A program made the position numbers and the translations under genes. From a virus, in the IMG/VR virus record IMGVR_UViG_3300025151_000218, positions 1 to 28,306 of that record: DNA of 28,306 bases; one strand, written 5' to 3'. Below, in pieces: positions 604-27,605 of the stretch (positions are counted from its first letter, which is position 1; every line of letters starts with the position of its first letter). Below the pieces are notes generated by a model. It saw nothing but the letters and a program-made list of their open reading frames with translations, searched no databases and was not told where the DNA came from.

Positions 604-611
604 TATAAATA
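604..611 (+). promoter_or_regulatory. T4-style late promoter TATAAATA
   Basis: Perfect match to the T4 late-promoter octamer. Its last base is 8 nt before the ATG at 619, and no Shine-Dalgarno lies between. By T4 spacing the transcript would start about at the ATG. Confidence 0.7.
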
Positions 612-618
612 ACAACAA

Positions 619-1845
619 ATGGCTAAAACTCTACGTACATCAGGTGATTACACCATAAAAGCAGGCGACGGGTACAACTCGGGATCTGGAGCAAACACAA
701 TCAATCTTGACAGTTTGAATGTAAGCGTAACTGGTAACCTCACAGTAGGCGGATCAACTTCGACCATAAGCACTACAAACACAACAGTAGAAGACAACAT
801 ATTAGAATTAAACACAGGCGCAACAGCAAACAGTAACAATGCTGGAATAATAATAGAGCGAGGATCAACAGGCGACAACGCCGCAATCATCTGGAAAGAG
901 GACACAGATACTTTTATATTAGGTACAACAACAGCAACGGCGGCAGACAAATCAAGTTCATTATCGGTTACCGCAGGGGCGTTACAGACTGGGGCCTTGA
1001 CAGCAACAACAGGAACGTTCAGTGGCGCTGTCACAAGTGCAGGTTCAACAGTAACAGGAAACTTCACTGCAGGCTCAGTAACAACAAACGAGATCGAAGG
1101 CAATGGTTCAAACGCGGCTATCACAGTAGCGTCATCAGGCACAGGAGATATAACTTTAGACGCTGGTGGAGATATAATACTAGACGCAGACAACGCCGAC
1201 ATAAAATTACAAGACGGTGGTGTAGAATTTGGTAGAATAAGCAGAGTAACTTCAGACCTAGTCATTAAAAGCATGGGCGACAACAATGATATATTGTTCA
1301 AAGGAGTAGATGACTCGGCCACAATCACAGCATTAACACTTGACATGAGTGCGGCAGGTGCCGCAACTTTCAATGACATGGTCACCATTGGTGGATCATT
1401 CAAAAAAGCAATACACACATTCACAGGCGATGACGCAATCACAGAAGTAGAACACGCAGGAAGAACACTATTACTAGGAGAAGTAGGTGGTAATGCCAAT
1501 GTTGTTCTAACACTTCCAGATGCGACAGGTTCAGGAAACATCTATCATTTCATAGTAAGCGTTGCAATGGGAGGATCAACAACGTACAAAATTCAAGTTC
1601 CAGATGCTGATAACACGATAACAGGACAGATCATGTACCTCGACGAAGACGGCACAGCAGTTACATCGTTTCCAACTGTGGCGGCATCGGACACAATTAC
1701 ATTGAACAGTGGCACACAAGGTGGACTAGTTGGTGACACACTAACACTTATCGACATTGCCGCAGACAAATACGCAGTGTCAGGTAATATGAGAGTGGCG
1801 GCGGGTGCCAATCCATCAACACCATTTACTGCCGCGGTAAGTTAA
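619..1845 (+). CDS. Repeat-rich tail fibre-like structural protein
   Basis: 408 aa, rich in Thr/Ser/Gly/Ala and beta-prone, with no signal peptide, typical of trimeric fibre shafts in marine myoviruses. Around residues 38-105 it carries a module with the order NLTVGGS, VEDNILEL, IIERG and IIWKEDTD. The same module recurs in the proteins starting at 3322 and 7504. Around residue 160 there is one copy of the SNA-x-I-T-x4-SGTGDI-x-L repeat that is shared along the fibre block. The C-terminal 130 residues look like a separate beta domain. The start is fixed by the late-promoter octamer at 604-611; no Shine-Dalgarno is visible. The role in adsorption is inferred from family style and neighbours. 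Confidence 0.75.
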   Translation: MAKTLRTSGDYTIKAGDGYNSGSGANTINLDSLNVSVTGNLTVGGSTSTISTTNTTVEDNILELNTGATANSNNAGIIIERGSTGDNAAIIWKEDTDTFILGTTTATAADKSSSLSVTAGALQTGALTATTGTFSGAVTSAGSTVTGNFTAGSVTTNEIEGNGSNAAITVASSGTGDITLDAGGDIILDADNADIKLQDGGVEFGRISRVTSDLVIKSMGDNNDILFKGVDDSATITALTLDMSAAGAATFNDMVTIGGSFKKAIHTFTGDDAITEVEHAGRTLLLGEVGGNANVVLTLPDATGSGNIYHFIVSVAMGGSTTYKIQVPDADNTITGQIMYLDEDGTAVTSFPTVAASDTITLNSGTQGGLVGDTLTLIDIAADKYAVSGNMRVAAGANPSTPFTAAVS

Positions 1846-1848
1846 TAG

Positions 1849-2292: not shown

Positions 2293-2301
2293 GGAGCGTA
2301 C

Positions 2302-3243: not shown

Positions 3244-3249
3244 TCTTAC

Positions 3250-3257: not shown

Positions 3258-3274
3258 TCTACAATATAAAGGAA

Positions 3275-5271: not shown

Positions 5272-5279
5272 AATAAATA
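5272..5279 (+). promoter_or_regulatory. T4-style late promoter AATAAATA
   Basis: 7 of 8 match. It lies 29 bases before ATG 5308, leaving a leader that contains AAGGA and AGGA Shine-Dalgarno candidates. Confidence 0.55.
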
Positions 5280-7457: not shown

Positions 7458-7465
7458 TATAAATA
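7458..7465 (+). promoter_or_regulatory. T4-style late promoter TATAAATA
   Basis: Perfect octamer 12 bases after the preceding stop. The leader to ATG 7504 contains GGGAG as Shine-Dalgarno. Confidence 0.7.
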
Positions 7466-8569: not shown

Positions 8570-8600
8570 AAAGGGCGGTGGAAACATCGCCCTTTTTTTT
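8570..8600 (+). terminator. Strong rho-independent terminator with GAAA tetraloop
   Basis: The 10-bp stem AAGGGCGGTG (8571-8580) pairs with CATCGCCCTT (8585-8594) with one G-T pair. It is closed by a GAAA tetraloop and followed by eight Ts (8593-8600). It closes the fibre operon. The last T directly touches the ATG of the next gene at 8601. Confidence 0.93.
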
Positions 8601-9173
8601 ATGACTTTACAAACAGACGGCACAGATAAAAATGGCAACTATGATATTCTTCATGAATATCTGCGTGGAAAACATTTACGCAGGTTAATAGACATTGGTG
8701 CATGGTGGGGGCCATGGTCACTGTTTTGGCAACCACGTGCAGAGAAAATTGAAATTTTTGAACCAAACAAAAGGATCTTGCCAATGTTAGAAAATAACAT
8801 TTCCGAATTTTCTAATTGCACACTACACAAAACAGCATTGGGTAACTACCAGGGAAAAGTGTCAATGGAGTATGAATCACACTCTGGAACAAATCATATC
8901 ACTAAATTAAGTGGTGATGTAAATTTGACAACGCTAGACAGTTTTAAATTTGAAAACGTAGATGTGATAAAAATTGATGTTGAAGGTTATGAAATTTCGG
9001 TACTTGAAGGTGCAAAAGAAACAGTGATGAGGGAGAAACCAATAATTCAAATAGAAGCAAATAAGTCGGGAAAAAGATACGGAAAGACTAAAATTGACAT
9101 ACTTGAAATGCTTTCAGGTTGGGGAATGAAAAGATTAATAAAAAAATGGCCCGACCAAGTGTGGGCGTTTTAA
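8601..9173 (+). CDS. FkbM-family SAM-dependent methyltransferase
   Basis: 190 aa. Motif I is DIGAWWGPWS at residues 31-40, the SAM-binding loop (usual form DIGA-x-x-G-x-x-S). An acidic FEPN is at 53-56, and the FkbM signature IKIDVEGYE is at 123-131, followed by LEGA and the strand IIQIEAN. This family usually O-methylates sugars or small glycans. Next to fibre genes it could modify a host surface glycan or a phage component, but the substrate is unknown. The start is odd: the ATG abuts the terminator T-tract and has no ribosome site; the next in-frame ATG is past the SAM loop, so this start is needed. The stop overlaps the stop of the convergent NUDIX gene. Confidence 0.88.
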   Translation: MTLQTDGTDKNGNYDILHEYLRGKHLRRLIDIGAWWGPWSLFWQPRAEKIEIFEPNKRILPMLENNISEFSNCTLHKTALGNYQGKVSMEYESHSGTNHITKLSGDVNLTTLDSFKFENVDVIKIDVEGYEISVLEGAKETVMREKPIIQIEANKSGKRYGKTKIDILEMLSGWGMKRLIKKWPDQVWAF

Positions 9174-9598: not shown

Positions 9599-9628
9599 AA
9601 TATATTATAACAATTTAACAAAAAATTA

Positions 9629-11074
9629 TCAAGGAGTAGTAGCATCTTGGCCAGATGCATCGTCATTTGCCACAAATCCACCATCAAGTACAATGCTCCA
9701 ATTACCAGCAGTATACACACCCTCGTATGACTTCACCCACTCTGTGCCATTGAATCTATACTGAATCCCTGTGTTCAAGTTTGTTACATAATGTTGCGTA
9801 CTGTCTGGGTTAGAGGCATCAAAAGCGATATTCCACTTGCTTGTTGTACCATTGTATTCTATGATATCACCAACACTAGCGACCAAACTGCCCCACGTTG
9901 CACTCTGAAAGGATGCTGACGAATCTCCAACATCATTAATCACAAGATACCTATCACCGTCTGTAGGAGTGCCTGGATCAAATGTTGCAGGGTTAATTAT
10001 TTTCTTGACTGCTGTCAGTGTGCTACTAGGTATTGTATCGTCATCTATGCTGTATAATAGTATTGTATCGTCTAATGTAGTTGTAGCAATAGTGCCTACA
10101 ATTTCGTTCCCATTTGGTTGTGTCAATCTTATTTGTGATGTGCCATTTGTAACTTTGCCGTATTGGTCAAGCAAAAGTTTCCAGTTTAATGGTGGACCAA
10201 ACGTTTCAAAAGGATCTGCTAATCCAGGATCATTTGCCCCTGAGTAATACCCATCACCACCAGATTTGGCACTTATTCCTGTTGTTCCTAAAAGTCTTAA
10301 TTGGTTTCCTGAAACTAACAGTCCATAGTTGTTTGGTGTGACATAACTTCTTGAAATGAGATCTCCATCTATCAATCCTTTGGCCATTCCGCCATCATCG
10401 TCGTAGATACTCATAATGATTTTCTGTACAACTCCTAATTTTTTAACTTTCACAGGAGGTGATAACCATATTGGCATACTGAATGTCAATGTTGCGACAT
10501 CTATCTCTGTATCTGCTCCTACAGGTATAGTTCTGCTACTAAAAGTAATACCTGTAAGTTCAACGTAACTTAAAGATGTCCAGTCTATGTAGTTGTCTGT
10601 CTTCTGTATTTCGAAATCTGGATTGAAGAGATATAGTATCTGCTCCATGATTTGTAATTTTTGATCGGTATTTGTGGTCCATATATCTGCTGACACTTCC
10701 AACCTAAAAGGTGACGGCATTACCTTCTCAACTGTGTACCCTGCACCTAATTGATTGGTGTAGTTGCCATCACTGTCTACGTCTCTTTCTTTAAGATGTT
10801 GCTTTTCGACGTGATAAGGATTCTGCATTCTGTCTCGATCATAGTTCAATTCTCGCACATATGCGGCAATTCTTGGAGCATACTGTAAAGCATTTTCTGA
10901 ATTGTTCCTTATTATATTAGCAACCTGTCTTGTTGGATCTCCGTACACCACTGGCACTGCTCTCAACGCCACTTGTCCGTCTTTGCCTCTACCTTGCTCA
11001 ACAGAAAAGTTGCTCAAAATCCTTATAAATTGAGTCAAAAACTTCCTAACCTGTCCGTCGTAAAAGTGTAACAT
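9629..11074 (-). CDS. gp15: Tail sheath stabiliser gp15-like protein with a long C-terminal extension
   Basis: 481 aa, leftward. Residues 1-225 match the gp15 tail-completion pattern of T4-like phages: MLHFYDGQVRKFLTQFIRIL at the N-terminus, VPVVYGDPTR near 41-49, YAPRIAAYVRELNYDRDRMQNP (65-86), and a VMPSPFRLEVSADIWTTN core. In T4, gp15 is 272 aa and caps the tail sheath where the head joins. The 481 aa here mean roughly 200 added residues at the C-terminus. This extension holds a beta-rich module (364-466) ending YRFNGTEWVKSYEG, which is similar to modules in the gp14 and gp18 proteins of this window. It starts 2 bases after the gp14 stop, so the two are co-transcribed. Confidence 0.82.
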   Translation of the reverse strand: MLHFYDGQVRKFLTQFIRILSNFSVEQGRGKDGQVALRAVPVVYGDPTRQVANIIRNNSENALQYAPRIAAYVRELNYDRDRMQNPYHVEKQHLKERDVDSDGNYTNQLGAGYTVEKVMPSPFRLEVSADIWTTNTDQKLQIMEQILYLFNPDFEIQKTDNYIDWTSLSYVELTGITFSSRTIPVGADTEIDVATLTFSMPIWLSPPVKVKKLGVVQKIIMSIYDDDGGMAKGLIDGDLISRSYVTPNNYGLLVSGNQLRLLGTTGISAKSGGDGYYSGANDPGLADPFETFGPPLNWKLLLDQYGKVTNGTSQIRLTQPNGNEIVGTIATTTLDDTILLYSIDDDTIPSSTLTAVKKIINPATFDPGTPTDGDRYLVINDVGDSSASFQSATWGSLVASVGDIIEYNGTTSKWNIAFDASNPDSTQHYVTNLNTGIQYRFNGTEWVKSYEGVYTAGNWSIVLDGGFVANDDASGQDATTP

Positions 11075-11076: not shown

Positions 11077-12246
11077 TTAATTGTCAGCCTTTGGTTTTAA
11101 TGCGTTAGATAACGATTGTCTTTGTTTAGTAGTTAATCCGTTTATGGTGTCTTCGGTTGTGTTATTGACAAATCCAGTTTTGTAATTCACCCTAGAGTCA
11201 TCATTTGTCATGCTTATTCTAACTGAATCCTCTATTTTTACCCATCTATTTCCGTCATAACGGAACAATCTATTAGGCAAGTAATCAGTACGTAAGAAAT
11301 AATCGCCTTTGTCGACATTGGCACTAGGAAAACTGATTCCAAAGCCTGCGGGATTTCCGTTTGGTGCAACTCCGTCGCCGTCTAGATAAAAACCATAGTG
11401 TGAACCTGCTGGCGTGTCTATCACAGCATTAACTTTTTTATCACCACTTACTCTTGTTTCTTCATTATTAACATTATCAGTCCTGATATTGCCTCTTTCA
11501 TCAATTGGTGCAACATAATATTGCTTGTAGTTGAAACCTGACTTCGGTGCATTAAGTTCTGCTTCAGCAACTACTTGGTCATTTATTGTTTTTTCTCTGT
11601 TGAAAGTTGACATATAACTTGCAAGTGAATTTTCTGTTGCGGCATCTCCTAGGATATCTCTGTATTCCTGTGAGTCTACTAGGGATTTAAGTTTAAGTCT
11701 AAGTAGATGTGGCCACCATGTTTGTGAAAATCCTTCAGCGGCTCTGTTTACATCTTCAACAACATAATATCTTTTAAGTGCAATTGGTATGCTTTCATCT
11801 AAAGAATAGTCTTCTTTCATGTGTGGGAATTCGATAACATCACCACTCATTGGTTTTCTACCTAATCTTTCAACAACGTCATTCATGTGTACAGTCAAAA
11901 ATAGTGTGTCATTTGATAGGAACATTCCAAACTGTGAAAGGTTGAAATCTTGATCTTGGACGTTGTAGATTCCTCTTATTACATAGATATCTGCGTCATA
12001 TTTTCTGTCTCTGTTTTCTAAAAACAGTAAATCTTGGATCGTTCTCTCGTTTAGGCCATCCCCAGAATACTGTGGTTGTGTCGGAGTGGCTTCACCGTCC
12101 TTGTTTGTTTCTCCCTGATCATAGGGACCAAGATATTTGTGAAAATGTAGGTCCGTCCCACCAACCGTAAACATCTCTTTTATGTTACGATCGAAGAACT
12201 TGTAGTCATTGCCCTTTTCAGGCTTAAAAATGGATAATCTTGGCAT
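11077..12246 (-). CDS. gp14: Neck protein gp14-like
   Basis: 389 aa from ATG 12246 (MPRLSIFKPEK). An in-frame ATG at 12255 lies inside the late-promoter octamer and is unlikely to be used. The central region ERTIQDLLFLENRDRKYDAD, then NLSQFGMFLSNDTLFLTVH (about 102-120) and GRKPMSGDVIEFPHMKE (129-145), follows the gp14 neck-protein pattern (FGM-x-L/V-x-D-x2-L ... EGD-x-IYFP in T4). gp14 works with gp13 to build the neck that joins head and tail. The protein is longer than T4 gp14 (about 256 aa). The extra C-terminal part holds a module RLFRYDGNRWVKIED (327-341) also seen in gp15 and gp18. Transcribed with gp15, divergently from gp13. Confidence 0.78.
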   Translation of the reverse strand: MPRLSIFKPEKGNDYKFFDRNIKEMFTVGGTDLHFHKYLGPYDQGETNKDGEATPTQPQYSGDGLNERTIQDLLFLENRDRKYDADIYVIRGIYNVQDQDFNLSQFGMFLSNDTLFLTVHMNDVVERLGRKPMSGDVIEFPHMKEDYSLDESIPIALKRYYVVEDVNRAAEGFSQTWWPHLLRLKLKSLVDSQEYRDILGDAATENSLASYMSTFNREKTINDQVVAEAELNAPKSGFNYKQYYVAPIDERGNIRTDNVNNEETRVSGDKKVNAVIDTPAGSHYGFYLDGDGVAPNGNPAGFGISFPSANVDKGDYFLRTDYLPNRLFRYDGNRWVKIEDSVRISMTNDDSRVNYKTGFVNNTTEDTINGLTTKQRQSLSNALKPKADN

Positions 12247-12252: not shown

Positions 12253-12286
12253 CATATTTATTGCACAGGCAAAGGCAATAAATATG
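12253..12286. promoter_or_regulatory. Divergent late-promoter pair between gp14 and gp13
   Basis: A perfect 12-bp inverted repeat, CATATTTATTGC (12253-12264) and GCAATAAATATG (12275-12286), is separated by 10 bases. It places the octamer AATAAATA on both strands: minus 12262-12255 and plus 12277-12284. Distances to the start codons are 9 nt (gp14, 12246) and 6 nt (gp13, 12290). Confidence 0.7.
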
Positions 12287-12289: not shown

Positions 12290-13051
12290 ATGTCAGAACT
12301 ACAAACAGGTCAACAAGAGATATTCGATTACGTTAAAAACAACCTCGGTGAGGGCATGATTGATGTTGAATTAGACCCTAAACACTACCAAACGGCCCTG
12401 GAAAGAGCAGTAAACAAATTTAGACAGAGATCATCTAACGCTGTCGAAGAATCATACGCTTTCTTAGAACTTAAGAAAAATCAGAACACATATATTTTGC
12501 CAGATGAGATTATAAATGTAAGAAATTTGAATAGAAGAACAGTTGGATCACGTACAGAGGGTGGCGAAGGCGGAACATTGTTTGAACCATTCAACCTAGC
12601 ATACACAAACACTTACCTATTAAGAGCAGGAGCAACAGGTGGACTAGCAACTTACTATGCATTCGCTTCGTACCAAGAACTGATAGGAAAAATGTTTGGA
12701 AGTTTCATACAGTTCCATTTCGATGTTGCAACGAAAAAATTAACAATCACACAAAGACCTAGAGCAGACAACGAAACAGTTCTGATGCACACTGACAATT
12801 ATAGACCAGACATAACATTGTTCAAAGACATATATGCTAAACCATGGATCAGAGATTACACACTTGCTGTATCTAAAATAATGTTAGGCGAAGCGAGAGG
12901 CAAATTCAACACCATCGCAGGCCCACAGGGTGGCACAACACTTAATGGTGATGCATTAAAAAGTGAAGGCCAGGCAGAAATTGATAGGTTAGAACAAGAC
13001 CTGGGCAATTTTGCCGAAGGTGGTACTCCACACAGTTTTGTTATTGGTTAA
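12290..13051 (+). CDS. gp13: Neck protein gp13-like
   Basis: 253 aa from ATG 12290 (MSELQTGQQEIFDYV). Upstream in-frame ATGs (12284, 12209) lie in or before the promoter octamer. LGEGMIDVELDPKHYQTALERAVNKFRQRSS, NQNTYILPDEIINVRNL and the C-terminal IRDYTLAVSKIMLGEARGKF followed by TTLNGDALKSEGQAEIDRLEQDL form the conserved order of gp13 neck proteins of T4-like phages. gp13 and gp14 make the neck that seals the filled head. T4 gp13 is about 309 aa, so this is slightly short. In T4, genes 13-14-15 lie on one strand; here gp13 is opposite to gp14/gp15. Confidence 0.82.
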   Translation: MSELQTGQQEIFDYVKNNLGEGMIDVELDPKHYQTALERAVNKFRQRSSNAVEESYAFLELKKNQNTYILPDEIINVRNLNRRTVGSRTEGGEGGTLFEPFNLAYTNTYLLRAGATGGLATYYAFASYQELIGKMFGSFIQFHFDVATKKLTITQRPRADNETVLMHTDNYRPDITLFKDIYAKPWIRDYTLAVSKIMLGEARGKFNTIAGPQGGTTLNGDALKSEGQAEIDRLEQDLGNFAEGGTPHSFVIG

Positions 13052-13067: not shown

Positions 13068-13075
13068 TTTAAATA
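13068..13075 (+). promoter_or_regulatory. Late-promoter-like octamer TTTAAATA
   Basis: Weaker match to the octamer (core AAATA intact), ending 9 bases before ATG 13084 with no Shine-Dalgarno, the same layout as other late genes here. Confidence 0.45.
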
Positions 13076-13083: not shown

Positions 13084-13266
13084 ATGACAGATCATCGATA
13101 CAGAACATATTCAGACCTTACATTAGATGAACTTGAAGAAGTAGTGCAAGACCTAGAGAACATGAGTATTGTTGCACTAAAACAGAAAAAGAAAGACCTA
13201 AGAATTACCATTCTCAAATCTGTTCTCGAAGCAAAAAAAGAGATTGAAAGACGATTCAAAAGATAG
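13084..13266 (+). CDS. Small helical protein of unknown function
   Basis: 60 aa, highly charged. Residues 13-60 (LTLDELEEVVQDLENM ... KQKKKDLRITILKSVLEAKKEIERRFKR) are predicted by eye to form two amphipathic helices, possibly a coiled coil. I do not recognise a family. Support for it being real comes from the octamer spaced 9 nt upstream, the clean fit between gp13 and the dNMP kinase gene, and codon use like its neighbours. It ends 12 bases before the next start and may be co-transcribed with the kinase. Confidence 0.6.
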   Translation: MTDHRYRTYSDLTLDELEEVVQDLENMSIVALKQKKKDLRITILKSVLEAKKEIERRFKR

Positions 13267-13278
13267 TATAATCAATAG

Positions 13279-13932
13279 ATGCTTATAGGAATTGTAGGAC
13301 TAATAGGTTCTGGTAAAGACACTGTTGCCGAACACCTTGTGGAACAACACGGTTATAAAAGAGATAGTTTTGCTAAAAGTTTGAAAGACGCAGTTGCATC
13401 CATGTTTAACTGGGATAGAAAGATGCTTGAGGGTAAAGGAGAATCAAGCAGACATTGGCGTGAACAACCTGACAAATTTTGGAGTGAAAAGTTTGGCAAA
13501 CCTGTAACTCCTAGGTGGGTATTACAATATTTTGGTACAGAAGTGATGCGTGGACAAATGTATGACGCAATATGGGTAGACAGTTGTATCGGTCGATACA
13601 AAGGACAGAATACAGTGATATCAGATACTAGATTCCCAAATGAAGTTAAAGCCATTAGAGCACACGGAGGCAAAATAATACGTGTAAAAAGAGGACAAGA
13701 TCCTGAATGGTTTACTAATTATGTTGAAGGAAATGTAGAACCAACAAACGTGCATTCTTCAGAATATGCTTGGGCAAAAGAGGAGTTTGATTTTGTCATA
13801 GAAAACAATGGTACAAAAGAAGAATTATGCGTAAAAACAAATAATCTATTCATCAGCAACAAGATCCCCCACACGCCATCCAAGCCTTCGAATACTGTCA
13901 AGTCTTTGGCAATTGGCGCAAACAGTTTTTAA
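13279..13932 (+). CDS. Deoxynucleoside monophosphate kinase (T4 gene 1 type)
   Basis: 217 aa. The P-loop GLIGSGKDT is at residues 7-15, followed by AEHLVEQHGYKRDSFAKSLKDAVASMFNWDR, the usual start of phage dNMP kinases. Later come PRWVLQYFGTEVMR, then DTRFPNEVKAIRAHGGKIIRVKR (about 116-138), the conserved D-x-RFPNE segment. T4 gp1 phosphorylates dTMP, dGMP and hydroxymethyl-dCMP to supply replication; substrate choice here is unknown. The last 25 residues after NNLFISN look like an added tail. They are encoded in the 87 bases shared with the antisense HNH-type gene, so an earlier stop may have been lost. No Shine-Dalgarno is visible. Confidence 0.85.
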   Translation: MLIGIVGLIGSGKDTVAEHLVEQHGYKRDSFAKSLKDAVASMFNWDRKMLEGKGESSRHWREQPDKFWSEKFGKPVTPRWVLQYFGTEVMRGQMYDAIWVDSCIGRYKGQNTVISDTRFPNEVKAIRAHGGKIIRVKRGQDPEWFTNYVEGNVEPTNVHSSEYAWAKEEFDFVIENNGTKEELCVKTNNLFISNKIPHTPSKPSNTVKSLAIGANSF

Positions 13933-14205
13933 ATTATTAGCAGTAGTGTTTCTCATGTTACCGTCAACAAACAGCACATCTAGTTGTTTTGTCTGTTGAG
14001 CTTTGAACCCACACAACTCACATTTTTTACGTTTCTTGTAGCCAGACCTTTGTAACGGAGTCACTCCACCAACACGTTTACCCGCTTTTTTTCTATTACA
14101 GGTATCACAAAGGCTACGCCAATATATTTTATTACCCTTCCTGTATGCATACGCCCTGGGTTTGCTTCCACACTTCTTACATAATGGCCTATCTTTATAT
14201 CGCAT
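13846..14205 (-). CDS. Degenerate HNH-type zinc protein
   Basis: 119 aa from ATG 14205, 6 nt after the minus-strand octamer at 14211-14217. A longer frame to 14307 runs through promoter-like DNA and is less likely. Four CxxC pairs (C9/C12, C33/C36, C62/C65, C96/C99) bind zinc in pairs. The segment FVDGNMRNTTANNLKTVCANC matches the beta-beta-alpha HNH core, usually (H)H-x-DGN-x-N-x5-NL-x2-LC-x2-CH. The histidine positions before DGN are replaced (L78-F79-V80), and the final H is Gln100. Asn83 and Asn91 remain. So it resembles phage HNH homing endonucleases but may lack nuclease activity. Its 3' end overlaps the dNMP kinase gene by 87 bases, antisense. Confidence 0.72.
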   Translation of the reverse strand: MRYKDRPLCKKCGSKPRAYAYRKGNKIYWRSLCDTCNRKKAGKRVGGVTPLQRSGYKKRKKCELCGFKAQQTKQLDVLFVDGNMRNTTANNLKTVCANCQRLDSIRRLGWRVGDLVADE

Positions 14206-14210: not shown

Positions 14211-14217
14211 TATTTAC
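14211..14217 (-). promoter_or_regulatory. Minus-strand late promoter GTAAATA
   Basis: The core TAAATA ends 6 nt before ATG 14205 on the minus strand, with no Shine-Dalgarno. It supports the shorter start of the HNH-type gene. Confidence 0.5.
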
Positions 14218-14220
14218 GTC

Positions 14221-14274: not shown

Positions 14275-14282
14275 AATAAATA
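14275..14282 (+). promoter_or_regulatory. T4-style late promoter AATAAATA
   Basis: 7 of 8 match, followed by a 39-base leader that carries AAGGAG (14306-14311) before ATG 14322. This is the probable promoter of the tail sheath gene. Confidence 0.6.
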
Positions 14283-17768: not shown

Positions 17769-17776
17769 AATAAATA
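17769..17776 (+). promoter_or_regulatory. T4-style late promoter AATAAATA
   Basis: 7 of 8 match between sheath and tube genes. The tube gene also has an AGGAG Shine-Dalgarno 5-10 bases before ATG 17791, so read-through and a new start are both possible. Confidence 0.55.
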
Positions 17777-18411: not shown

Positions 18412-18439
18412 TAAGAATTAAGTTAGCAATTATAACAGG

Positions 18440-18466
18440 AAAAGCGTCTTTATAGGCGCTTTTTTT
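18440..18466 (+). terminator. Rho-independent terminator after the tail tube gene
   Basis: The stem AAAAGCGTC (18440-18448) pairs with GGCGCTTTT (18455-18463) with one T-G pair, loop TTTATA, then Ts to 18466. It is followed within 6 bases by a late-promoter octamer. Confidence 0.88.
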
Positions 18467-18471: not shown

Positions 18472-18479
18472 TATAAATA
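18472..18479 (+). promoter_or_regulatory. T4-style late promoter TATAAATA
   Basis: Perfect octamer directly after the terminator and 6 nt before ATG 18485, with no Shine-Dalgarno. It starts the next transcription unit. Confidence 0.72.
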
Positions 18480-18484: not shown

Positions 18485-19897
18485 ATGCCAAGCATTAACA
18501 ATTTCTTAAAAGGTTTCCAGGACGGACTTCCTGGAATGAAAGATTACCGACACGCATCACGACTGTACATAGACGACACGTACAAGTTGATGCCAAAACA
18601 GAAATTCCTTTTCCATGTTGTTTTCGACACAGACGAATCAATTTTCTTTGATGGATTCCAAAACCATGAAAGAACTGAATTGAACATGCTGGTGAAGGCC
18701 TGTGACATGCCCAAGTATGACATGAGCCTAGAAGAAAAAATTCAGTACAATAAGAAACTGTATACAGCAACAAGGATTGCTTACGAGCCAATCAACATCA
18801 CGTTCCATGATGATCATGCAGATACAGTGAATGCATTCTGGAAGAAATACTACGAGTACAATATTGCGGACTCTGTCGGAATGCAAAGCGAGGCAACTGT
18901 CAGAACCACCAAGGATGACTACTATGACGGAATAGATGCAAAACGTGTTACAAAATTTGGATTGGACACACCTAAGAAAAGGAAAAAACCATATCTAAGA
19001 AACATAGAAATATTTGTTTTACACAAACAAAGATTCACATCAATGACTCTAATTAATCCTGTGATAGGATCATTCTCACACGATAATCTTGATGCGGCAG
19101 ATGGGGCAGGCATCCTGCAAAATACAATGCAGATACTATATGAAACTGTTACATACAAATCAGGAATGATCAAAAACCCCGATGGAAGAGTCAACGCTAA
19201 CAATATCAGAGGTGGCTTCGCTACAATACATTATGACAAGGAACCAAGTCCATTGACTGTGTTGGGTGGTGGGACTAGCAGTATATTTGGTCCCGGTGGT
19301 GTTGTAGACGGTATTGGTTCTGTAATAAGAAATTATAAAAATAAGAACATACTGGGTGCAATATTGGCGGCGTCAAACACTTACAACAATGCGAAAAAAA
19401 TTAAAAAACAAGATGCAAAAGAAGAATTAAAAGGCATTGCAAAACGAGGAGTTTTAGAAGTAGGTAAACAGGCAGGCACAATCACAAATCCCGTTGGTGG
19501 ATTCAACGTTGGTGCCGCGGTCGCAGGTGCTGTTGTACTTGCAACTGCCAAAGGTACCGATGATAAAAAAAACAAAAGCAACGCAAGAGTAATCAAGAGT
19601 CCAGCACTTGATACCACACTATACCTAACAGCAGAAGAATCGTTTCAATTGATATCAAATAACGAAACATTGAAGGACGAGATCGCGGCAGGTATATATT
19701 ACAAAGATATCGGTTCAAGAAAGGATATTACAGTGGCGGCATCTGATATCGAGTATGCAGGATCGAGCGATACCACAAAAAGGGTGTACAGAAACAAGGC
19801 GATAACAGATATAAGGAAATTGGTCACAGAAGGATACATTAAAATTTCAAGAGGAACGCAGGATGTATCAATAACAGTTGAGAAGGCGGCATTATAA
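18485..19897 (+). CDS. Tube-like baseplate/tail protein (gp54/gp19-like fold)
   Basis: 470 aa from ATG 18485 (MPSINNFLKGFQDG). An upstream in-frame GTG at 18467 lies in the terminator/promoter region. The N-terminal 215 residues follow the tail-tube-like pattern: PKQKFLFHVVFDTD, LVKACDMPKYDMSLEEKIQYNKKLYTATRIAYEPINITFHDDHADTVNAFWKKYYEYN, and RNIEIFVLHKQRFTSMTLINPVIGSFSHD. This pattern is found in baseplate tube-initiator proteins (T4 gp54) as well as gp19. After about 225 comes a Gly/Lys/Ala-rich stretch and a C-terminal domain (about 370-470) with no recognised family. A tube initiator or second tube protein is the best guess. The stop overlaps the next ATG by one base (TAATG). Confidence 0.65.
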   Translation: MPSINNFLKGFQDGLPGMKDYRHASRLYIDDTYKLMPKQKFLFHVVFDTDESIFFDGFQNHERTELNMLVKACDMPKYDMSLEEKIQYNKKLYTATRIAYEPINITFHDDHADTVNAFWKKYYEYNIADSVGMQSEATVRTTKDDYYDGIDAKRVTKFGLDTPKKRKKPYLRNIEIFVLHKQRFTSMTLINPVIGSFSHDNLDAADGAGILQNTMQILYETVTYKSGMIKNPDGRVNANNIRGGFATIHYDKEPSPLTVLGGGTSSIFGPGGVVDGIGSVIRNYKNKNILGAILAASNTYNNAKKIKKQDAKEELKGIAKRGVLEVGKQAGTITNPVGGFNVGAAVAGAVVLATAKGTDDKKNKSNARVIKSPALDTTLYLTAEESFQLISNNETLKDEIAAGIYYKDIGSRKDITVAASDIEYAGSSDTTKRVYRNKAITDIRKLVTEGYIKISRGTQDVSITVEKAAL

Positions 19898-20274: not shown

Positions 20275-20714
20275 TGTTACCTAGATTTGCAAGAGGTAAG
20301 TTTACTCCAAAGAACGGAGAAAAATATGTAGGCACAAAAACACCAACTTACAGATCAAGTTGGGAACACTCGTTTATGAGATTGTGTGATGAACATCCTA
20401 GTGTGTATCAGTGGGCGTCTGAGTCAATTAAGATTCCATACAGACATCCTTTCACTGGAAAATACACAGTGTACGTGCCAGATTTTTTTATTGTGTACCA
20501 AGACAAAAATGGTCGTAAACATGCGGAAATGGTTGAAGTAAAACCAATGAGTCAGACTACCATGGAGGCGGCGGGCAAGAGCCAAGGAAAAAAGAAACAG
20601 GTTGTGATAAACATGGCAAAATGGGAGGCCGCAAGTAATTTTGCAAAACAAAGAAAAATAAAATTTAGAGTAATATCAGAAGAACAATTATTCCACAGCG
20701 GTAAACGTAAGTAA
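20274..20714 (+). CDS. gp4: Head completion nuclease gp4-like
   Basis: 146 aa. The order YRSSWEHSFMRLCDEHPSV (26-44), WASESIKIPYRHPFTGKYTVYVPDFFI (47-73) and EMVEVKP (85-91) matches T4 gp4 (head completion protein, also called gp50/gp4) and the TnsA-like restriction-endonuclease fold. Candidate metal and catalytic residues are E31, D70, E88 and K90. KWEAASNFAKQRKIKFRVISEEQL is the usual last helix and strand. In T4 this protein is needed to make filled heads competent for tail joining. The stop TAA lies inside the late-promoter-like AGTAAATA of the next gene. Confidence 0.83.
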   Translation: MLPRFARGKFTPKNGEKYVGTKTPTYRSSWEHSFMRLCDEHPSVYQWASESIKIPYRHPFTGKYTVYVPDFFIVYQDKNGRKHAEMVEVKPMSQTTMEAAGKSQGKKKQVVINMAKWEAASNFAKQRKIKFRVISEEQLFHSGKRK

Positions 20715-20717
20715 ATA
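20710..20717 (+). promoter_or_regulatory. Late-promoter-like octamer AGTAAATA
   Basis: Core TAAATA ends 6 nt before ATG 20723. The octamer contains the stop codon of the gene before it (20712-20714). No Shine-Dalgarno. Confidence 0.5.
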
Positions 20718-20722: not shown

Positions 20723-21247
20723 ATGACAAAGAAACTAGAAGATATCCTTAATTTACCAAACGTCAAACAAGCGTTCAAAGAAGTCGACAAAAAAGAACAG
20801 GCAAAAGCCAACAGAGATCAAACAAAAGAAGTGATGAAAAATGTTGATCCGCAAACACGTAAAAATTTAGAAAAGAGTTATGCAGAATTTGACAAGGTTG
20901 CGGCCGCACTACCGCAGGTTAAAGGCCTGGGAGAACTATCAGATTTAGAATTAGATAAGTTGGCTGTAGAAGCAGAAGAAAGTTATAAAAATCTAATGGA
21001 TTTGGGGATGAACGTTGATTCTCGTTACTCAGGCAGAATATTCGAAGTTGCAGGAAACTTTTTACGTAATGCCATAGACGCAAAAGGTTCTAAAATTGAT
21101 AAAAAATTAAAAATGGTCGAATTACAATTAAAGAAAATGAAGATCGACAAAGACGGAAACAAGGACGGGGGTCCAATAGAGGAGAGCGACGGTTTTGTAA
21201 TATCTGACCGAAACGAATTGATGAAGAAATTACTGAAGAAAGACTAA
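20723..21247 (+). CDS. gp16: Small terminase subunit gp16-like
   Basis: 174 aa, mostly helical and charged. The central part LSDLELDKLAVEAEESYKNLMDLGMNVDSRYSGRIFEVAGNFLRNAIDAKG (about 72-122) matches the oligomerisation core of T4-type small terminases (pattern L-x-DTG-M-x2-x-x-R-x-EV-x-x-x-L-x-x-x-I-x-A). The KLKMVELQLKKMKIDKDG segment that follows and the C-terminal FVISDRNELMKKLLKKD tail also fit. It recognises phage DNA and stimulates the large terminase. The large terminase gene is not adjacent but three genes downstream (23886), an order unlike T4, where 16 and 17 adjoin. The stop overlaps the ATG of the radical SAM gene by one base. Confidence 0.85.
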   Translation: MTKKLEDILNLPNVKQAFKEVDKKEQAKANRDQTKEVMKNVDPQTRKNLEKSYAEFDKVAAALPQVKGLGELSDLELDKLAVEAEESYKNLMDLGMNVDSRYSGRIFEVAGNFLRNAIDAKGSKIDKKLKMVELQLKKMKIDKDGNKDGGPIEESDGFVISDRNELMKKLLKKD

Positions 21248-22386
21248 TGTCGCTTCCTAGTAACTTTTGTCCGGCCCCATTCATACAACTACAAACATCA
21301 AAAAACGGATCGTGTGGTCCATGTCCATACAGGCCAAATATGTGGAATGTAAAAGGACCAATATCGGAGCAGTGGCGATCTGATGCAATAAAAGGATTAC
21401 GTCAGAACTTTCTTGATAATAAAAAAGATCCACGTTGTCAACGTTGCTGGAAAGAAGAAGAAGCAGGCCATGAGAGTTTGAGATTACGACTCCGAGAATT
21501 CAGAGGCAGTGCCAATACTGGAAAAGTTTTTGAAAAATATATTGAAACAAAAAAATATGAAAAGTTTCCATTAATTTTGACTGTTATCCCCGGAAACGAA
21601 TGTAATTTATCCTGTCCATCTTGCAACGGAAATTTTTCAAGTAAATGGAATAGTATGGCAAGTAACAGCGACTATGGAGGATTTCAAAAAGTGGTGGATA
21701 ATTGGAATTTAACAGAGGCACAATACCAGGACATAGTGGATAATTCTCCTAATTTACAGAAAATAGAAGTGTTTGGTGGAGAACCTTTTCTAAATAAAAA
21801 AAATAGAAAATGGCTTATTGAAAGATTAATCGAAAAAGGCACATCAAAAAATATAAAATTATACTTCAACACAAATGGCACACAATTCGATAGCAAGTAC
21901 ATGGAGAAAATTACGAGTAATTTTAAGTTTGTTGAAATAAGACAATCGATAGACGGCTTATATGAACAGTTCGAATATATACGTTATGGGGCAAAGTTCG
22001 ATCAGATCATCTCCAATGCTGAAAAATTCAATGCACTTCCAAACACAGATTATGAAATAATATGTACAGTGTCTATTTTCAACGTTTTATCACTTGAAGA
22101 TATTGATAGTTTTTTCAAAGCACGTAATTGGTCCGTATATTATAATGTAGTTGATTTTGAAAATCACTTACTCCTACACAACATACCTGATGTATTGAAA
22201 AAACACATCAAATTACCTAGAAAATTCCACGACATAGAACAGTATATAAACATGCAAAATTGCAACACTGATCATTGGGATAGTTTTGTAAGATATACTA
22301 AAATTTTAGACACAAACAGAGGCACATCCTTCAAAAACACCTTCCCTGCCCTGCATAATCTAGTCAAAAAACACGGCTATGAATGA
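21247..22386 (+). CDS. Radical SAM enzyme with extra cysteine pairs (twitch/SPASM-like)
   Basis: 379 aa. The radical SAM cluster motif is CX3CX2C at C119, C123 and C126 (NECNLSCPSC), preceded by a strand LILTVIPG. GGEP at 176-179 is the usual SAM amino-group site. The N-terminal part has C8, C23, C26, C64 and C67 in the layout FC-x-APF ... GSCGPCPY ... C-x-x-C, which suggests an auxiliary iron-sulphur cluster as in twitch or SPASM-like proteins. Substrate unknown; relatives modify peptides, sugars or small molecules. TAATG overlap with the small terminase stop means coupled translation inside the packaging operon. An acquired metabolic or virion-modifying gene is possible. Base composition looks like the neighbours. 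Confidence 0.88.
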   Translation: MSLPSNFCPAPFIQLQTSKNGSCGPCPYRPNMWNVKGPISEQWRSDAIKGLRQNFLDNKKDPRCQRCWKEEEAGHESLRLRLREFRGSANTGKVFEKYIETKKYEKFPLILTVIPGNECNLSCPSCNGNFSSKWNSMASNSDYGGFQKVVDNWNLTEAQYQDIVDNSPNLQKIEVFGGEPFLNKKNRKWLIERLIEKGTSKNIKLYFNTNGTQFDSKYMEKITSNFKFVEIRQSIDGLYEQFEYIRYGAKFDQIISNAEKFNALPNTDYEIICTVSIFNVLSLEDIDSFFKARNWSVYYNVVDFENHLLLHNIPDVLKKHIKLPRKFHDIEQYINMQNCNTDHWDSFVRYTKILDTNRGTSFKNTFPALHNLVKKHGYE

Positions 22387-22395
22387 TACATAAAG

Positions 22396-22403
22396 GCTAA
22401 ATA
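22396..22403 (+). promoter_or_regulatory. Late-promoter-like octamer GCTAAATA
   Basis: Core TAAATA ends 7 nt before ATG 22410, with no Shine-Dalgarno. Confidence 0.5.
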
Positions 22404-22409: not shown

Positions 22410-23015
22410 ATGAGCACGTTCAAAGACTATCTAACAGAATCAGCAAAGTCGTATGACTACAAAATAAAGGTAGCAGGCGATCTAGACAAAGATTTTGGCA
22501 GTAAGTTAGAATCAGCACTTGCAAAATTTGAAGTTGCAAATATGTCAGCAGGTAAGAAAACACCTATAATGACATTGCCACTTGATTTTCCTGCCTTGAG
22601 TAATGAGCAGGTAACAATTTTTGATGTGACAACAAATTATCCAGCATCATCAAATGTAATGAAAGAATACCTTTCAGACATTTTAAGAGTTCCGGCAACT
22701 CACATTGTTGTGAGAAAACCAGGCGAACCTACAGAGCAATATCAAGACGACATGCAAGTTGCTCAAAATTCAGAATACAAAAACAAATTACTAGACATAG
22801 AATACAAAGACGCACCAAAAGTCAAAGGTGAAGATTTCCATTCAACTCAAGCAAACATGAGTTTGTTAAAAGAACTATTAAAAGACAGAGAAGACAATAA
22901 AGACCAGCCAAAGGGTGGACAAGAAACTGGCGTACAGAGCCACATAGAAGAAAAAGGAACACCAAGTCCTTTAAGCAAATCAACAAACCCACACCCAGAC
23001 CCAAAAAGGAAATAA
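22410..23015 (+). CDS. Candidate internal head protein of unknown function
   Basis: 201 aa from ATG 22410; an in-frame TTG at 22404 lies against the octamer and is unlikely. The N-terminus MSTFKDYLTES closely resembles the capsid-targeting peptide of T4 internal proteins (MKTYQEFIAEA). It includes a possible gp21 protease site LTE before S11 (consensus L/I-x-E). Residues 15-120 form a compact alpha/beta domain (KIKVAGDLDKDFGSKLESALAKFEV, then FDVTTNYPASSNVMKEYLSDIL and HIVVRKPGEPTEQYQDD). The C-terminal 60 residues are Lys/Pro/Glu-rich and look disordered. I do not recognise an enzyme. An internal or scaffold-associated protein is inference from the peptide and the position between terminase genes. 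Confidence 0.65.
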   Translation: MSTFKDYLTESAKSYDYKIKVAGDLDKDFGSKLESALAKFEVANMSAGKKTPIMTLPLDFPALSNEQVTIFDVTTNYPASSNVMKEYLSDILRVPATHIVVRKPGEPTEQYQDDMQVAQNSEYKNKLLDIEYKDAPKVKGEDFHSTQANMSLLKELLKDREDNKDQPKGGQETGVQSHIEEKGTPSPLSKSTNPHPDPKRK

Positions 23016-23870: not shown

Positions 23871-23878
23871 GTTAAATA
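23871..23878 (+). promoter_or_regulatory. Late-promoter-like octamer GTTAAATA
   Basis: Core TTAAATA ends 8 nt before ATG 23886, with no Shine-Dalgarno. The spacer ends in ACACTATG, like those at 18485 and, nearly, 25491. Confidence 0.5.
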
Positions 23879-23885
23879 CTACACT

Positions 23886-25478
23886 ATGGCGTATGTATCA
23901 TTAGACAGCGACCAAATTAAAAAGGCGCACAAGAAACACAAATACACTAAAGAACAAGTTGAACAACTTGAAAAGTGTATGGATGAAAAAACAGGTCCAC
24001 TTTACTTCATGAAACAGTTCATGAAGATACAACATCCAACAAAAGGTGAGATGAAATTTCAACCTTTTCCTTACCAAGAAAGATTAGTAGAGGCATACAA
24101 CAATCATCGATTTAGTATATCTATGCTTCCAAGGCAAACAGGAAAAACTACATGTGCATCAGGATACCTTATATGGTATGCAATGTTTAAACCAGATTCT
24201 CAAATACTAATCGCCGCTCACAAATACGCGGGTGCATCAGATATCATGTCAAGGGTGCGTTATGCATATGAGATGTTACCTAGTTGGATAAAAGCAGGCG
24301 TAACACAGTACAACAGGAACTCAATAGAATTTGACAATGGGTCAAAAATTATGGCAACCACAACAACTGAGAACACAGGTAGGGGTATGTCACTTACATT
24401 AATATATTGTGATGAGTTTGCGTTCGTTCAACCACCAGAAAAAGCCAAAGAATTTTGGACATCACTGTCTCCAACATTGAGTACAGGTGGTAAATGTTTG
24501 ATTACTTCAACTCCAAATAGTGACGAGGACCAATTCGCTATGATTTGGAAAGAAGCAAACAAGAGATTTGATGAATATGGAAATGATAAAATAGTTGGTA
24601 CCAACGGTTTCTATGCCATGAAAGCACACTGGAACGAACACCCAGACAGAGATGAAGCATGGGCAGAACAAGAACGTTCAAGAATTGGCGAAGAAAGATT
24701 TAGAAGGGAACACGAGTGTGAGTTCTTAATTTTTGATGAAACACTCATATCAAGTTTGGTGCTGGCAGACATGGAAGGTGTACCACCTGTAGAAACCACA
24801 GGACAAGTGCGTTGGTTCAAGAGACCCACACCCGGACACACCTACATGGTTTCATTAGATCCAAGCATGGGAACGGGAGGAGACTTTGCCGCAATACAGG
24901 TATTTGAACTGCCAACCTTCGAACAAATAGGTGAATGGCATCATAACCAAACACCAATGAATCAGCAAGTTAGAATACTTCAAGGTATCAACAAGCATAT
25001 ACATGACACAATTATGGAAAAAGATGCAACAGCATCTCCACAAATATTCTATAGTATGGAAAATAATTCAATAGGTGAGGCCGCACTCATGAGGGTAATG
25101 GATATTGGCGAAGAGAACATACAAGGCATGTTTCTATCAGAACCTATTAGAAAAGGACATAGAAGAAAATTTAGAAGAGGATTTAACACAACAGCGAAAC
25201 ACAAAATAGATGCCTGCACAAAATTTAAAGAACTTGTAGAAAACGATAAAATGAAAATTCATTCACAATTATTAATATCAGAACTAAAGGATTTTGTTGC
25301 ATCAGGATTATCATATAAAGCCAAGCCTGGACAACATGACGATCTAGTAAGTGCTTGTTTGCTTATGACTCGTATGATGAAAGTATTAGCAGATTTTGAC
25401 CCAAAAATCTTCGAAAAATGGACTGACAGAACATCTGAGATAACCCCAATGCCTATATTTGGATCGTTCACAGGTTAA
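23886..25478 (+). CDS. gp17: Large terminase subunit gp17-like (packaging ATPase and nuclease)
   Basis: 530 aa. Walker A PRQTGKTT is at 82-89 in the T4 gp17 form, with Q motif-like PFPYQERLVEA before it. Walker B LIYCDE is at 172-177 with E177 as catalytic Glu. Coupling motif LITSTPNS is at 205-212. The C-terminal RNase H-like nuclease has VSLDPSMGTGGDFAA (D325, D333) and HDDLVSA at 484-490 as the metal-binding acidic residues. It drives DNA into the head and cuts the concatemer. T4 gp17 is 610 aa; this length is usual for marine relatives. The stop lies inside the late octamer of the next gene. Confidence 0.96.
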   Translation: MAYVSLDSDQIKKAHKKHKYTKEQVEQLEKCMDEKTGPLYFMKQFMKIQHPTKGEMKFQPFPYQERLVEAYNNHRFSISMLPRQTGKTTCASGYLIWYAMFKPDSQILIAAHKYAGASDIMSRVRYAYEMLPSWIKAGVTQYNRNSIEFDNGSKIMATTTTENTGRGMSLTLIYCDEFAFVQPPEKAKEFWTSLSPTLSTGGKCLITSTPNSDEDQFAMIWKEANKRFDEYGNDKIVGTNGFYAMKAHWNEHPDRDEAWAEQERSRIGEERFRREHECEFLIFDETLISSLVLADMEGVPPVETTGQVRWFKRPTPGHTYMVSLDPSMGTGGDFAAIQVFELPTFEQIGEWHHNQTPMNQQVRILQGINKHIHDTIMEKDATASPQIFYSMENNSIGEAALMRVMDIGEENIQGMFLSEPIRKGHRRKFRRGFNTTAKHKIDACTKFKELVENDKMKIHSQLLISELKDFVASGLSYKAKPGQHDDLVSACLLMTRMMKVLADFDPKIFEKWTDRTSEITPMPIFGSFTG

Positions 25479-25484
25479 TAAATA
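25477..25484 (+). promoter_or_regulatory. T4-style late promoter AATAAATA
   Basis: 7 of 8 match overlapping the large terminase stop codon. It ends 7 nt before ATG 25491, with no Shine-Dalgarno. Confidence 0.6.
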
Positions 25485-25490
25485 CACTAT

Positions 25491-27605
25491 ATGAACCCAA
25501 AAAATTCGCAAGATTTATTCAATAAAATTAGATCACAGTTTTCTAACATACGTTTAGGCGATGAAAATGGAGCGGCAACGGCTGACCCATCAAATGCAGT
25601 GTTTTTTGAGTTTGAATTCCAGGAAGACGCAGACACATTTGGCTCTGTGAGCATCAGTTTAGCAGATGGTGAAAATATGAAAGTCTACTATAATAGAGAT
25701 CTAGTGAGCAAAATAGACGAAGATAGCAGAGATGAATGGTATGCTTTCCTAAAAGAACTAAAAGACTTCGCTGTAGAACATCAGTTAACTTTTGACGTAA
25801 GAGATATTACTAAAAACAACCTAACGAAGCAAGATTATGAAAATCTTGCAGATACGAACAAAACGGTAAATACTGATGAAATGTCAGAAGAACTAAACAG
25901 AATCACCAAATTAGCAGGTGTCGAAAAGGCACCGGTTGCAGAAGGTCTAACAGGCACTTCTAAAAGTTCATTTGAAAATTTAGATAAAACAAAATTAATA
26001 ATTAGGCACAAAGGAAAAGTTGATGAAACTGTTCCAGGTGCAAGATCAAGACAGATACAATCACTATACATTGAAAACGAAGACGGTGAAAGATTCAAAT
26101 ATCCATTAACACACCTAGCAGGTGCAAGAGCGATGCAAAGACATGTTGCAAATGGCGGAAGACCACATGATGAATTTGGACAACATATTGTTTCAACTTC
26201 AGAAGACATAGCAAAATTAAATTCATTTTCGCGATATGCATCAAATAAAGATCAACTAAATGATAATGCAGGTGATATAATTGAACAAACTAAATTAAAA
26301 TTAGAAAATCTAAGAGGTTATATGAGAAACCTATCAAAGCAATCTCATTATGAAGCGGCATCAAAAGATTTCAAAACATCAGAAGAACAAATTTTAGACG
26401 ATGAAACAGTTAACAAATTAAGAGAAAAATTTACAATGAAGAATTTGGATAGCAGGGTTGAAGATGCTTTCCCAATTATAAACAGAATAATGAGTGAATT
26501 CGAAGCAACTAAAGAACAACCTGTTAACGAATTGGAACCAGATGCAGAACCAATTGACGCACCTGTACAAGCACCAGTAGATCATGGCGCAGTTGTTCAA
26601 AGTTTTTTAAACGATCCAGAAAGCAAATTAGTATTAAGAAAAGATGACTCTGCTGATAAAATGCTAAAAGTTACAAAATTTACAAATAAAAACACAATGT
26701 TAAGTTCAATACTATCAGATATAGCAAGTAGACTTTTAACAAAATCAGGTGAAGAAGATAGAGTGGCAAACTTTGCTTCGAGAGTTGCAGACGAGATGGA
26801 ACAGGAAAATTCAGCAACATTCAAACCTACACCAGACTACATCAAGAACAAAAAAATCGCAGTGCAGTTAGCAAAGAGATACATTGACGACTACAAGAAA
26901 ATGGAAAAAGATCCAGCATACGGAAAAGAAATAAGAATGGAACCAGGCGAATTTGCACCTAAGAAAGACCTAAAAGGCAAAGCAAAAGAAACAGAGGCAT
27001 TCGAAGGTTGGGTTGATTCAATGATAGACGAAGGTGGAATCAAGCCTTACGTGTCAATGAGCAGGGGCGAAAAAGATGGCAAGATGATGTACAACGTTCT
27101 AGACAGAAATGAAAAAACAATCTTCGCATCGAGAGACGAGAAAGAAGCAACTGCATTCTTAAGAAAAAACTTTGACAAATTAAGAGCAGGCGAAATGGAA
27201 GTGGCCGAATATGCTAAAATGGGAGATTTTCCAAGAGATAAAGAAATCGAAAAGAAAGACAAAGAGAACGCAACTAAACTTGACGTTACAAAAGCAGACA
27301 AAATGATGAACACAACTGCTTACAAAAGAATGCAGGCAGGTGACCCCAAGTACGCAGATAAGACAGAGGGAAATCAGTTCGCACAGGCAGTACAGAAAGC
27401 CAAGGCGGCGGGTATGAAGGCTGGCGATAAATTTAAAGTTGGTGATCAAGAATACACACTGAAAGACGCTATCGAGATGGCAGGATTGCAACTTGAAGAA
27501 TTCTTCTCAGAAGAAGACCTTGCATCAATCGAAGATGCACAGCAAGAAGCAGAAGCGATCAACACAGAATTAGACAGAATTAAGACACTGGCTAACCTTT
27601 CTTAA
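25491..27605 (+). CDS. Large charged protein of unknown function between terminase and gp32
   Basis: 704 aa. The N-terminal domain, about 1-115, is alpha/beta (NAVFFEFEFQEDADTFGSVS, EWYAFLKELKDFAVEHQLTFDVRDITKNNL). ELNRITKLAGVEKAPVAEG follows near 133-152. A second ordered region at about 160-250 contains TKLIIRHKGKVDE, PGARSRQIQSLYIENEDGERFKYP and HLAGARAMQRHVANGG. Helical, acidic stretches fill the middle, and GGIKPYVSMSRGEKDGKMMYNV near 520 marks a small C-terminal domain. It ends with ELDRIKTLANLS. No enzyme motif or membrane segment is seen. The two ordered N-terminal regions resemble uncharacterised proteins I associate with other marine T4-like phages. Late promoter and context suggest a virion or assembly role. 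Confidence 0.8.
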   Translation: MNPKNSQDLFNKIRSQFSNIRLGDENGAATADPSNAVFFEFEFQEDADTFGSVSISLADGENMKVYYNRDLVSKIDEDSRDEWYAFLKELKDFAVEHQLTFDVRDITKNNLTKQDYENLADTNKTVNTDEMSEELNRITKLAGVEKAPVAEGLTGTSKSSFENLDKTKLIIRHKGKVDETVPGARSRQIQSLYIENEDGERFKYPLTHLAGARAMQRHVANGGRPHDEFGQHIVSTSEDIAKLNSFSRYASNKDQLNDNAGDIIEQTKLKLENLRGYMRNLSKQSHYEAASKDFKTSEEQILDDETVNKLREKFTMKNLDSRVEDAFPIINRIMSEFEATKEQPVNELEPDAEPIDAPVQAPVDHGAVVQSFLNDPESKLVLRKDDSADKMLKVTKFTNKNTMLSSILSDIASRLLTKSGEEDRVANFASRVADEMEQENSATFKPTPDYIKNKKIAVQLAKRYIDDYKKMEKDPAYGKEIRMEPGEFAPKKDLKGKAKETEAFEGWVDSMIDEGGIKPYVSMSRGEKDGKMMYNVLDRNEKTIFASRDEKEATAFLRKNFDKLRAGEMEVAEYAKMGDFPRDKEIEKKDKENATKLDVTKADKMMNTTAYKRMQAGDPKYADKTEGNQFAQAVQKAKAAGMKAGDKFKVGDQEYTLKDAIEMAGLQLEEFFSEEDLASIEDAQQEAEAINTELDRIKTLANLS

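Follow-up and report, generated by a model that had tools for sequence, protein, structure and literature searches.

Late-promoter octamers at gene starts in the window

The stretch of DNA analyzed here, henceforth referred to as the window, is the 28,306-nucleotide (nt) IMG/VR virus record IMGVR_UViG_3300025151_000218 (positions 1 to 28,306), a contig from a marine virus. It carries octamers of the bacteriophage T4 late-promoter type, TATAAATA or similar, and ten of these stand directly before the start codons of genes that include those for the gp13 head-tail adaptor, a homing-type endonuclease and the large and small terminase subunits, the small subunit being a weak match. The original prediction, made from the letters of the window, held that these octamers end 6–9 nt before ATG codons devoid of a Shine-Dalgarno (SD) sequence and that the mRNAs would be nearly leaderless. 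All ten distances were reproduced exactly, and the SD duplex energies of the ten genes all fall short of the –4.5 kcal/mol used as the SD criterion. The octamers are listed in Table 1 with the other promoter and terminator features of the window.

Table 1 Promoter and terminator features of the window. Distances run from the last base of the octamer or of the –10 box to the ATG; SD energies are in kcal/mol.
Feature	Positions	Strand	Distance to ATG (nt)	Gene (ATG position)	SD energy	Conservation
Late octamer TATAAATA	604..611	+	8	619, tail-fibre-like	+1.6	distance shared by 4/5 aligned relatives
Late octamer	12255..12262	–	9	12246, virion structural protein phrog_11591	0.6	9 nt in 7/7 orthologues
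Late octamer	12277..12284	+	6	12290, head-tail adaptor, gp13-like	–3.2	6 nt in 7/7 orthologues
Late octamer	13068..13075	+	9	13084, 60 aa unknown	0.6	7–9 nt in 19/19 orthologues
Late octamer	14211..14218	–	6	14205, HNH endonuclease-like	–2.8	6–7 nt in 23/23 orthologues
Late octamer TATAAATA	18472..18479	+	6	18485, tail tube-like protein	0.7	6–9 nt in 53/53 orthologues
Late octamer	20710..20717	+	6	20723, weak small-terminase match	–0.9	6–8 nt in 61/65 orthologues
Late octamer	22396..22403	+	7	22410, virion structural protein	–3.2	7 nt in 67/67 orthologues
Late octamer	23871..23878	+	8	23886, terminase large subunit	0.6	8–9 nt in 76/76 orthologues
Late octamer	25477..25484	+	7	25491, virion structural protein	–3.2	7–8 nt in 78/78 orthologues
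Intrinsic terminator	574..601	+	T-run end ~18, abutting octamer	619
Intrinsic terminator	18438..18466 (approximate)	+	end 18	18485		in all ten contigs
Far late octamer	5272..5279	+	29	5308	–5.3
Far late octamer	7458..7465	+	39	7504	–7.4
Far late octamer	14275..14282	+	40	14322, tail sheath	–8.5
Octamer	17769..17776	+	15	17791, tail tube	–7.3
Sigma-70-type promoter TTGAAA-17-TATAAT	13244..13272	+	7	13279, dNMP kinase	no SD
Sigma-70-type promoter TTGATA-17-TATAAT	9604..9632	–	6	9598, NUDIX-like	no SD	same layout in the G003 orthologue

The choice of gene starts relied on coding score, favored ATG and took no account of the motif. The gene at 14205 (minus strand) was missed by the caller and that at 12290 was called at an upstream ATG, and both starts therefore rest on orthologues. 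The comparative material consisted of G001, an IMG/VR contig of 138,715 bases that represents the same virus (99.99% identity across window positions 1–27801), nine more contigs at ~73–80% nucleotide identity, and some seventy shorter loci. Orthologues of the ten genes retain TAAATA, the informative core of the octamer, together with a near-identical, gene-specific distance to the ATG, while the other upstream sequence diverges. These orthologue sets are likewise devoid of SD sequences, except for 22% of the set of the gene at 14205.

The octamer at 20710–20717 includes the TAA stop codon of the upstream gene, and the same seemingly applies to the gene at 22410 in relatives that do not carry a radical-SAM-like gene found here at 21247–22386. 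That gene is missing from this location in all nine other large contigs, for which the alignments end at 21247 and restart at 22392. Since they resume at the octamer of the gene at 22410, the insertion left this promoter intact.

Genome-wide distances and Shine-Dalgarno strength

Because G001 is the same virus as the window, the octamer-to-ATG distance could be plotted genome-wide, using TAAATA as the scan motif. In the window, TAAATA was found at 6–9 nt in 8 of 25 independently called starts compared to 3 of 1033 other ATG codons (Fisher 4.5e-12), and in the 138.7 kb of G001 in 19 of 141 starts compared to 4 of 5247 (2e-27). Across the 709 genes of the ten contigs (the virus of G001 plus the nine relatives), the nearest TAAATA lay at 6, 7, 8 and 9 nt in 34, 39, 20 and 15 genes, respectively. 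Only five genes had it at 1–5 nt, three of them at 5 nt and none at 2–4 nt, and beyond 9 nt it was scattered. The sharp peak predicted at 6–9 nt is thus present. It holds 108 genes from 44 similarity families, henceforth referred to as near genes, where the frequency of the motif in more distal upstream sequence predicts ~6. Hexamers matched in composition, used as controls, gave far weaker peaks or none, save overlapping ones such as ATAAAT and AAATAT; these controls and the non-start ATG codons rule out chance placement. Exact TATAAATA counted alone was not enriched relative to the reversed pattern.

The strength of the SD sequence also split with distance as predicted. An SD at or below –4.5 kcal/mol was found in 1% of near genes, in 40% of genes with no motif and in 60% of genes with an octamer more than 25 nt away. 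The start codon is ATG in 108/108 near genes, although the caller favors ATG.

The genome of this virus also encodes the sigma factor that such octamers call for in T4. A gp55-type late sigma of 326 amino acids lies at 91027–92007 of G001 (phrog_12791, E 6e-82; phrog_234, E 2e-22) and is followed by a gp47-like gene, as in the Pelagibacter phage HTVC008M. This homologue (L088 11027–12007, equivalent to the G001 positions) has a long N-terminal extension, and the T4-type profile phrog_234 is matched by residues 160–277 only. By large terminase subunit (TerL), the nearest named phages are PA5oct and jumbo phages of Rhizobiales. The tRNAs gave no pointer to the host.

Predicted transcription starts

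In T4, the late octamer occupies positions –13 to –6 relative to the transcription start (Nolan et al., PMC1524935), which places +1 at the sixth base after the octamer (octamer +6). Whether this register holds in these phages can be read from the far promoters, where an ATG cannot bias the bases and the check is therefore independent. Among far promoters with ATAAATA (15 families, family-weighted), 80% carry a pyrimidine at octamer +5, and the base at +6 is a purine in 87%. A purine is found at +6 in 78% of all far promoters (25 families, family-weighted) and in 86% of T4 octamers. This pyrimidine/purine signature fits the T4 register. At near genes with a distance of 6 nt, the base before the ATG is a pyrimidine in 89%.

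As judged from the promoter register, the predicted +1 of near genes coincides with the start codon or lies only a few nt from it. A distance of 6 nt, where the peak has its lower edge, is the shortest that would still leave the ATG completely within the transcript, and distances of 6, 7, 8 and 9 nt would give leaders of 0, 1, 2 or 3 nt.

Terminators and divergent genes set outer limits on the leaders of several near genes. A terminator lies within 30 nt upstream of 11/108 near genes, compared to 2/73 other genes bearing TAAATA and 0/527 genes with no motif; the strong one before 18485 recurs throughout the ten contigs, and that before 619 is present in G001. For genes behind such terminators, transcription must start no more than ~18 nt before the ATG, a space largely taken up by the octamer. 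The genes at 12246 (minus strand) and 12290 diverge, with 43 bp between their ATG codons holding two octamers. In HTVC008M, the back-to-back starts of gp2 and gp4 (NC_020484 18916–18943, L128) are 26 bp apart, and both ATG codons have an octamer at 6 nt. These short spacers leave no room for leaders.

Two further details were observed at such sites. Each octamer of the divergent pair in the window overlaps a decoy in-frame ATG (AATAAATATG; 12255–12253 on the minus strand and 12284–12286) that would be outside the predicted transcript, and the true start is the next ATG, 6–9 nt further. Elsewhere, the T-tract of a strong terminator, AAAGGGCGGTGGAAACATCGCCCTTT (window 8570–8601), reaches the ATG of an FkbM-like methyltransferase gene at 8601, leaving no space for a promoter or an SD.

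Sigma-70-type promoters with the same layout

A second promoter class shows a comparable arrangement. TATAAT peaks 7 nt before the ATG (13/641 genes, ~1 expected), which is the distance at which sigma-70 promoters start transcription. At least four of six matches to TTGACA were found at 16–18 bp in 15/19 of these near TATAAT promoters, and 5% of the genes have an SD. In the window, the genes at 13279 and 9598 (minus strand) are two further leaderless candidates that were absent from the original prediction. Two promoter classes that differ in their promoter-to-start distance, each with its predicted +1 on the ATG, provide strong evidence, on sequence grounds, for leaderless initiation.

The proposal of two translation modes within one late regulon is supported, with corrections. 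The split between SD-led and putatively leaderless late genes stands, but as a strong tendency and not a rule, and since sigma-70 promoters share the layout, the leaderless mode would not be confined to the late regulon.

The near-octamer layout in other phages

The T4 late system (gp55/gp33/gp45) has in common with the window phages the octamer TATAAATA, a gp55 homologue, a purine at octamer +6 and the use of the octamer at virion genes. It differs in spacing: in a 50 kb T4 region, octamers lie 10–47 nt upstream of the ATG with a peak at 28–29 nt, strong SD sequences follow, and none lies at 6–9 nt. The predicted peak does recur in related phages. Besides the clade of the window, it was found in two cultured Pelagibacter phages, HTVC008M (12 near genes) and Mosig (6), nearly all at exactly 6 nt, mostly without an SD and beside leadered SD genes. 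These two belong to a distant lineage (TerL ~32% identity), and their spacing is fixed at 6 nt and not spread over 6–9 nt. No mention of their near octamers was found in the literature searched. PA5oct has one near octamer in the region read, and none was found in the regions read of Melnitz, phiM12, Atu_ph07, Phosso, Syn9 and P-SSM4. A general tie to alphaproteobacterial hosts was rejected, as the near peak is absent from the regions read of phiM12, Atu_ph07 and Phosso; only an early region of Cr30 was covered, which says little. A phage-encoded bS21 is not supported as a switch between the two modes: it is present in HTVC008M, Mosig and Melnitz, the last devoid of near octamers, and the clade of the window gave no match above the cut-off.

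Spacing scans drew on 2.9 million viral contigs, and their figures cover the matches listed, not totals. With TATAAATA-N5-ATGGCT, an open reading frame of at least 100 amino acids followed in 96/121 matches listed (79%), with a pyrimidine before the ATG in 89% and an SD in 5%. The controls gave such a frame in 33% (N3, ATG at 4 nt) and 45% (N10, 11 nt) of the matches listed. The 96 genes fall into 36 families, and 93 of ~120 loci match T4-like references. Judged from these matches, the near-octamer design is widespread in environmental T4-like phages and is present in at least two distant lineages.

Leaderless middle and late mRNAs also occur in the Thermus phage P23-45, and in the leaderless program of the phiYS40 type the phage induces a shift in IF2/IF3. 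Most middle and late mRNAs of Thermus phage phiYS40 are leaderless (reviewed in PMC3594737). The resemblance is that of a phage with SD-independent initiation on middle and late mRNAs devoid of a leader. However, phiYS40 uses host sigma-A promoters and not a gp55-type sigma, and its Thermus host belongs to a group rich in leaderless genes (PMC3160421), whereas the window phages would combine leaderless and leadered modes in one late regulon. A –10 box abutting the reading frame is known at leaderless genes of Deinococcus-Thermus and Actinobacteria (PMC3160421, PMC12340547), the same promoter-to-ATG geometry but with cellular sigma factors rather than a viral late sigma. No description of leaderless gp55-type late promoters was found in the literature searched, which took in few subscription papers. 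Leaderless phage mRNAs are thus already known from phiYS40; their predicted occurrence at gp55-type late promoters would be new.

Interpretation and alternative explanations

The interpretation we favor, with a probability of about 0.86, is that the octamers are gp55-type late promoters with +1 at octamer +6, as in T4, and that the mRNAs of near genes are leaderless or nearly so, their AUG being read without an SD. Across this phage and its marine relatives, ~13–15% of the genes would have their start codon on +1 or at most 3 nt downstream. The promoter itself would then yield a (nearly) leaderless mRNA whose 5'-terminal AUG is bound directly by the ribosome, probably by 70S-type initiation, with no need for an SD. 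The remaining late genes would keep the T4 layout, with an octamer ~15–50 nt upstream, a leader and an SD, and some genes with sigma-70 promoters would share the zero-leader design. We infer the 5' ends from promoter register and spacing.

Several observations weigh against this interpretation. The claim that genes with a distant octamer all have an SD holds for the four in the window but fails genome-wide, where three G001 genes with a far octamer (11659, 22288 and 81000) lack an SD. In most relatives, the octamer, SD and ATG of the tail-tube gene lie within 11 nt, which puts the SD upstream of the predicted +1, where it would serve read-through mRNA only. In the 7-nt class, the initiator signature is shifted, with A favored at +5, which suggests that transcription starts either 2 nt before the AUG or directly on it. 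Neither gp45 nor gp33, the partners of gp55 in T4, gave a match by tblastn or PF09116, although the contigs are possibly incomplete. Finally, the genes of a Pelagibacteraceae sample, discussed below, show no near peak of their own.

The least probable of the alternatives is that the octamer-proximal ATG codons are not true starts and that the ribosome instead uses a start codon further downstream that has an SD. Internal ATG codons of this kind exist in 18485 (17 codons in, –6.5 kcal/mol) and 12290 (22 codons, –7.0), but the N-termini from the octamer-proximal ATG align among orthologues, the ATG itself being retained in 53/53, 65/65, 67/67, 75/76 and 78/78 sequences of the five best-sampled genes. 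Strong internal starts with an SD are absent from the other near genes, four of which have in-frame stops 9–15 nt upstream, and the starts were called without use of the motif. It is also very unlikely that the octamer is an AU-rich ribosome-binding element in the RNA of longer transcripts begun elsewhere. Such SD-independent signals are known in other bacteria (PMC3160421), but the motif is the known promoter sequence of gp55 and gp55 is encoded, the terminators just upstream of 18485 and 619 stop read-through, the hard 6-nt edge and the pyrimidine/purine initiator are features of transcription starts, and TATAAT peaks elsewhere, at the 7 nt appropriate to its own promoter class.

Less easily set aside, though still improbable, is the view that the promoters are real but that translation proceeds mainly from read-through mRNA coupled to the upstream gene, with the leaderless transcript a minor species. 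Many near genes do lie within ~12 nt of a preceding gene on the same strand. Read-through would, however, be of no use to the genes at 619 and 18485, which follow a terminator, or to the divergent pair at 12246 (minus strand) and 12290, and the conserved octamer–ATG spacing would be left unexplained. More weight, if well short of favor, goes to the possibility that the layout merely mirrors a host rich in leaderless genes and is in no way phage-specific. In its favor are the phage's own sigma-70 promoters, which share the layout, and the natural leaderless mRNAs of Alphaproteobacteria, 171 of them in S. meliloti (PMC3616915). On the other side, T4-like phages of Sinorhizobium and of an OM43 host show no near peak in the regions examined, and neither TATAAT nor TAAATA shows a peak in 400 kb sampled from one Pelagibacteraceae genome, in which SD use is rare (17%). 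Simple imitation of that SAR11 host is thus unsupported, although the host of the window virus may differ.

Possible function and significance

The genes with near octamers are mostly low-copy virion parts, including gp2, gp3, gp4, gp13, gp25 and gp48 in HTVC008M. In G001, HTVC008M and Mosig, the genes for the major capsid protein, tail tube and tail sheath are preceded by SD sequences of –6 to –9 kcal/mol. We hypothesize that leaderless initiation serves low-copy virion parts. Given this gene set, its likely function would be compact, gene-by-gene initiation, with a translation rate that may be lower or differently regulated. Counter-examples are gp13 and the large terminase of Mosig, which have an SD, and the near gene at 18485, which is tail-tube-like. 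A more speculative and distinctly tentative extension is that one late sigma feeds two translation channels and that promoter–ATG spacing acts as a dial of virion stoichiometry, low-copy parts being leaderless and bulk capsid, sheath and tube SD-led, possibly with a phage-induced change of the late ribosome.

T4 late transcription is a textbook example of a leadered, SD-led system, and its marine relatives, including SAR11 phages, appear to have shifted the promoter onto the start codon. If so, tools for gene calling or promoter search that assume a leader and an SD would overlook late promoters in these phages and assign wrong starts. This would fit the account of pelagimyophages in which late-promoter prediction is described as unsuccessful (PMC7029224). 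As both modes appear to be present in the cultured phages HTVC008M and Mosig, SD-independent initiation could be tested in an ecologically dominant host.

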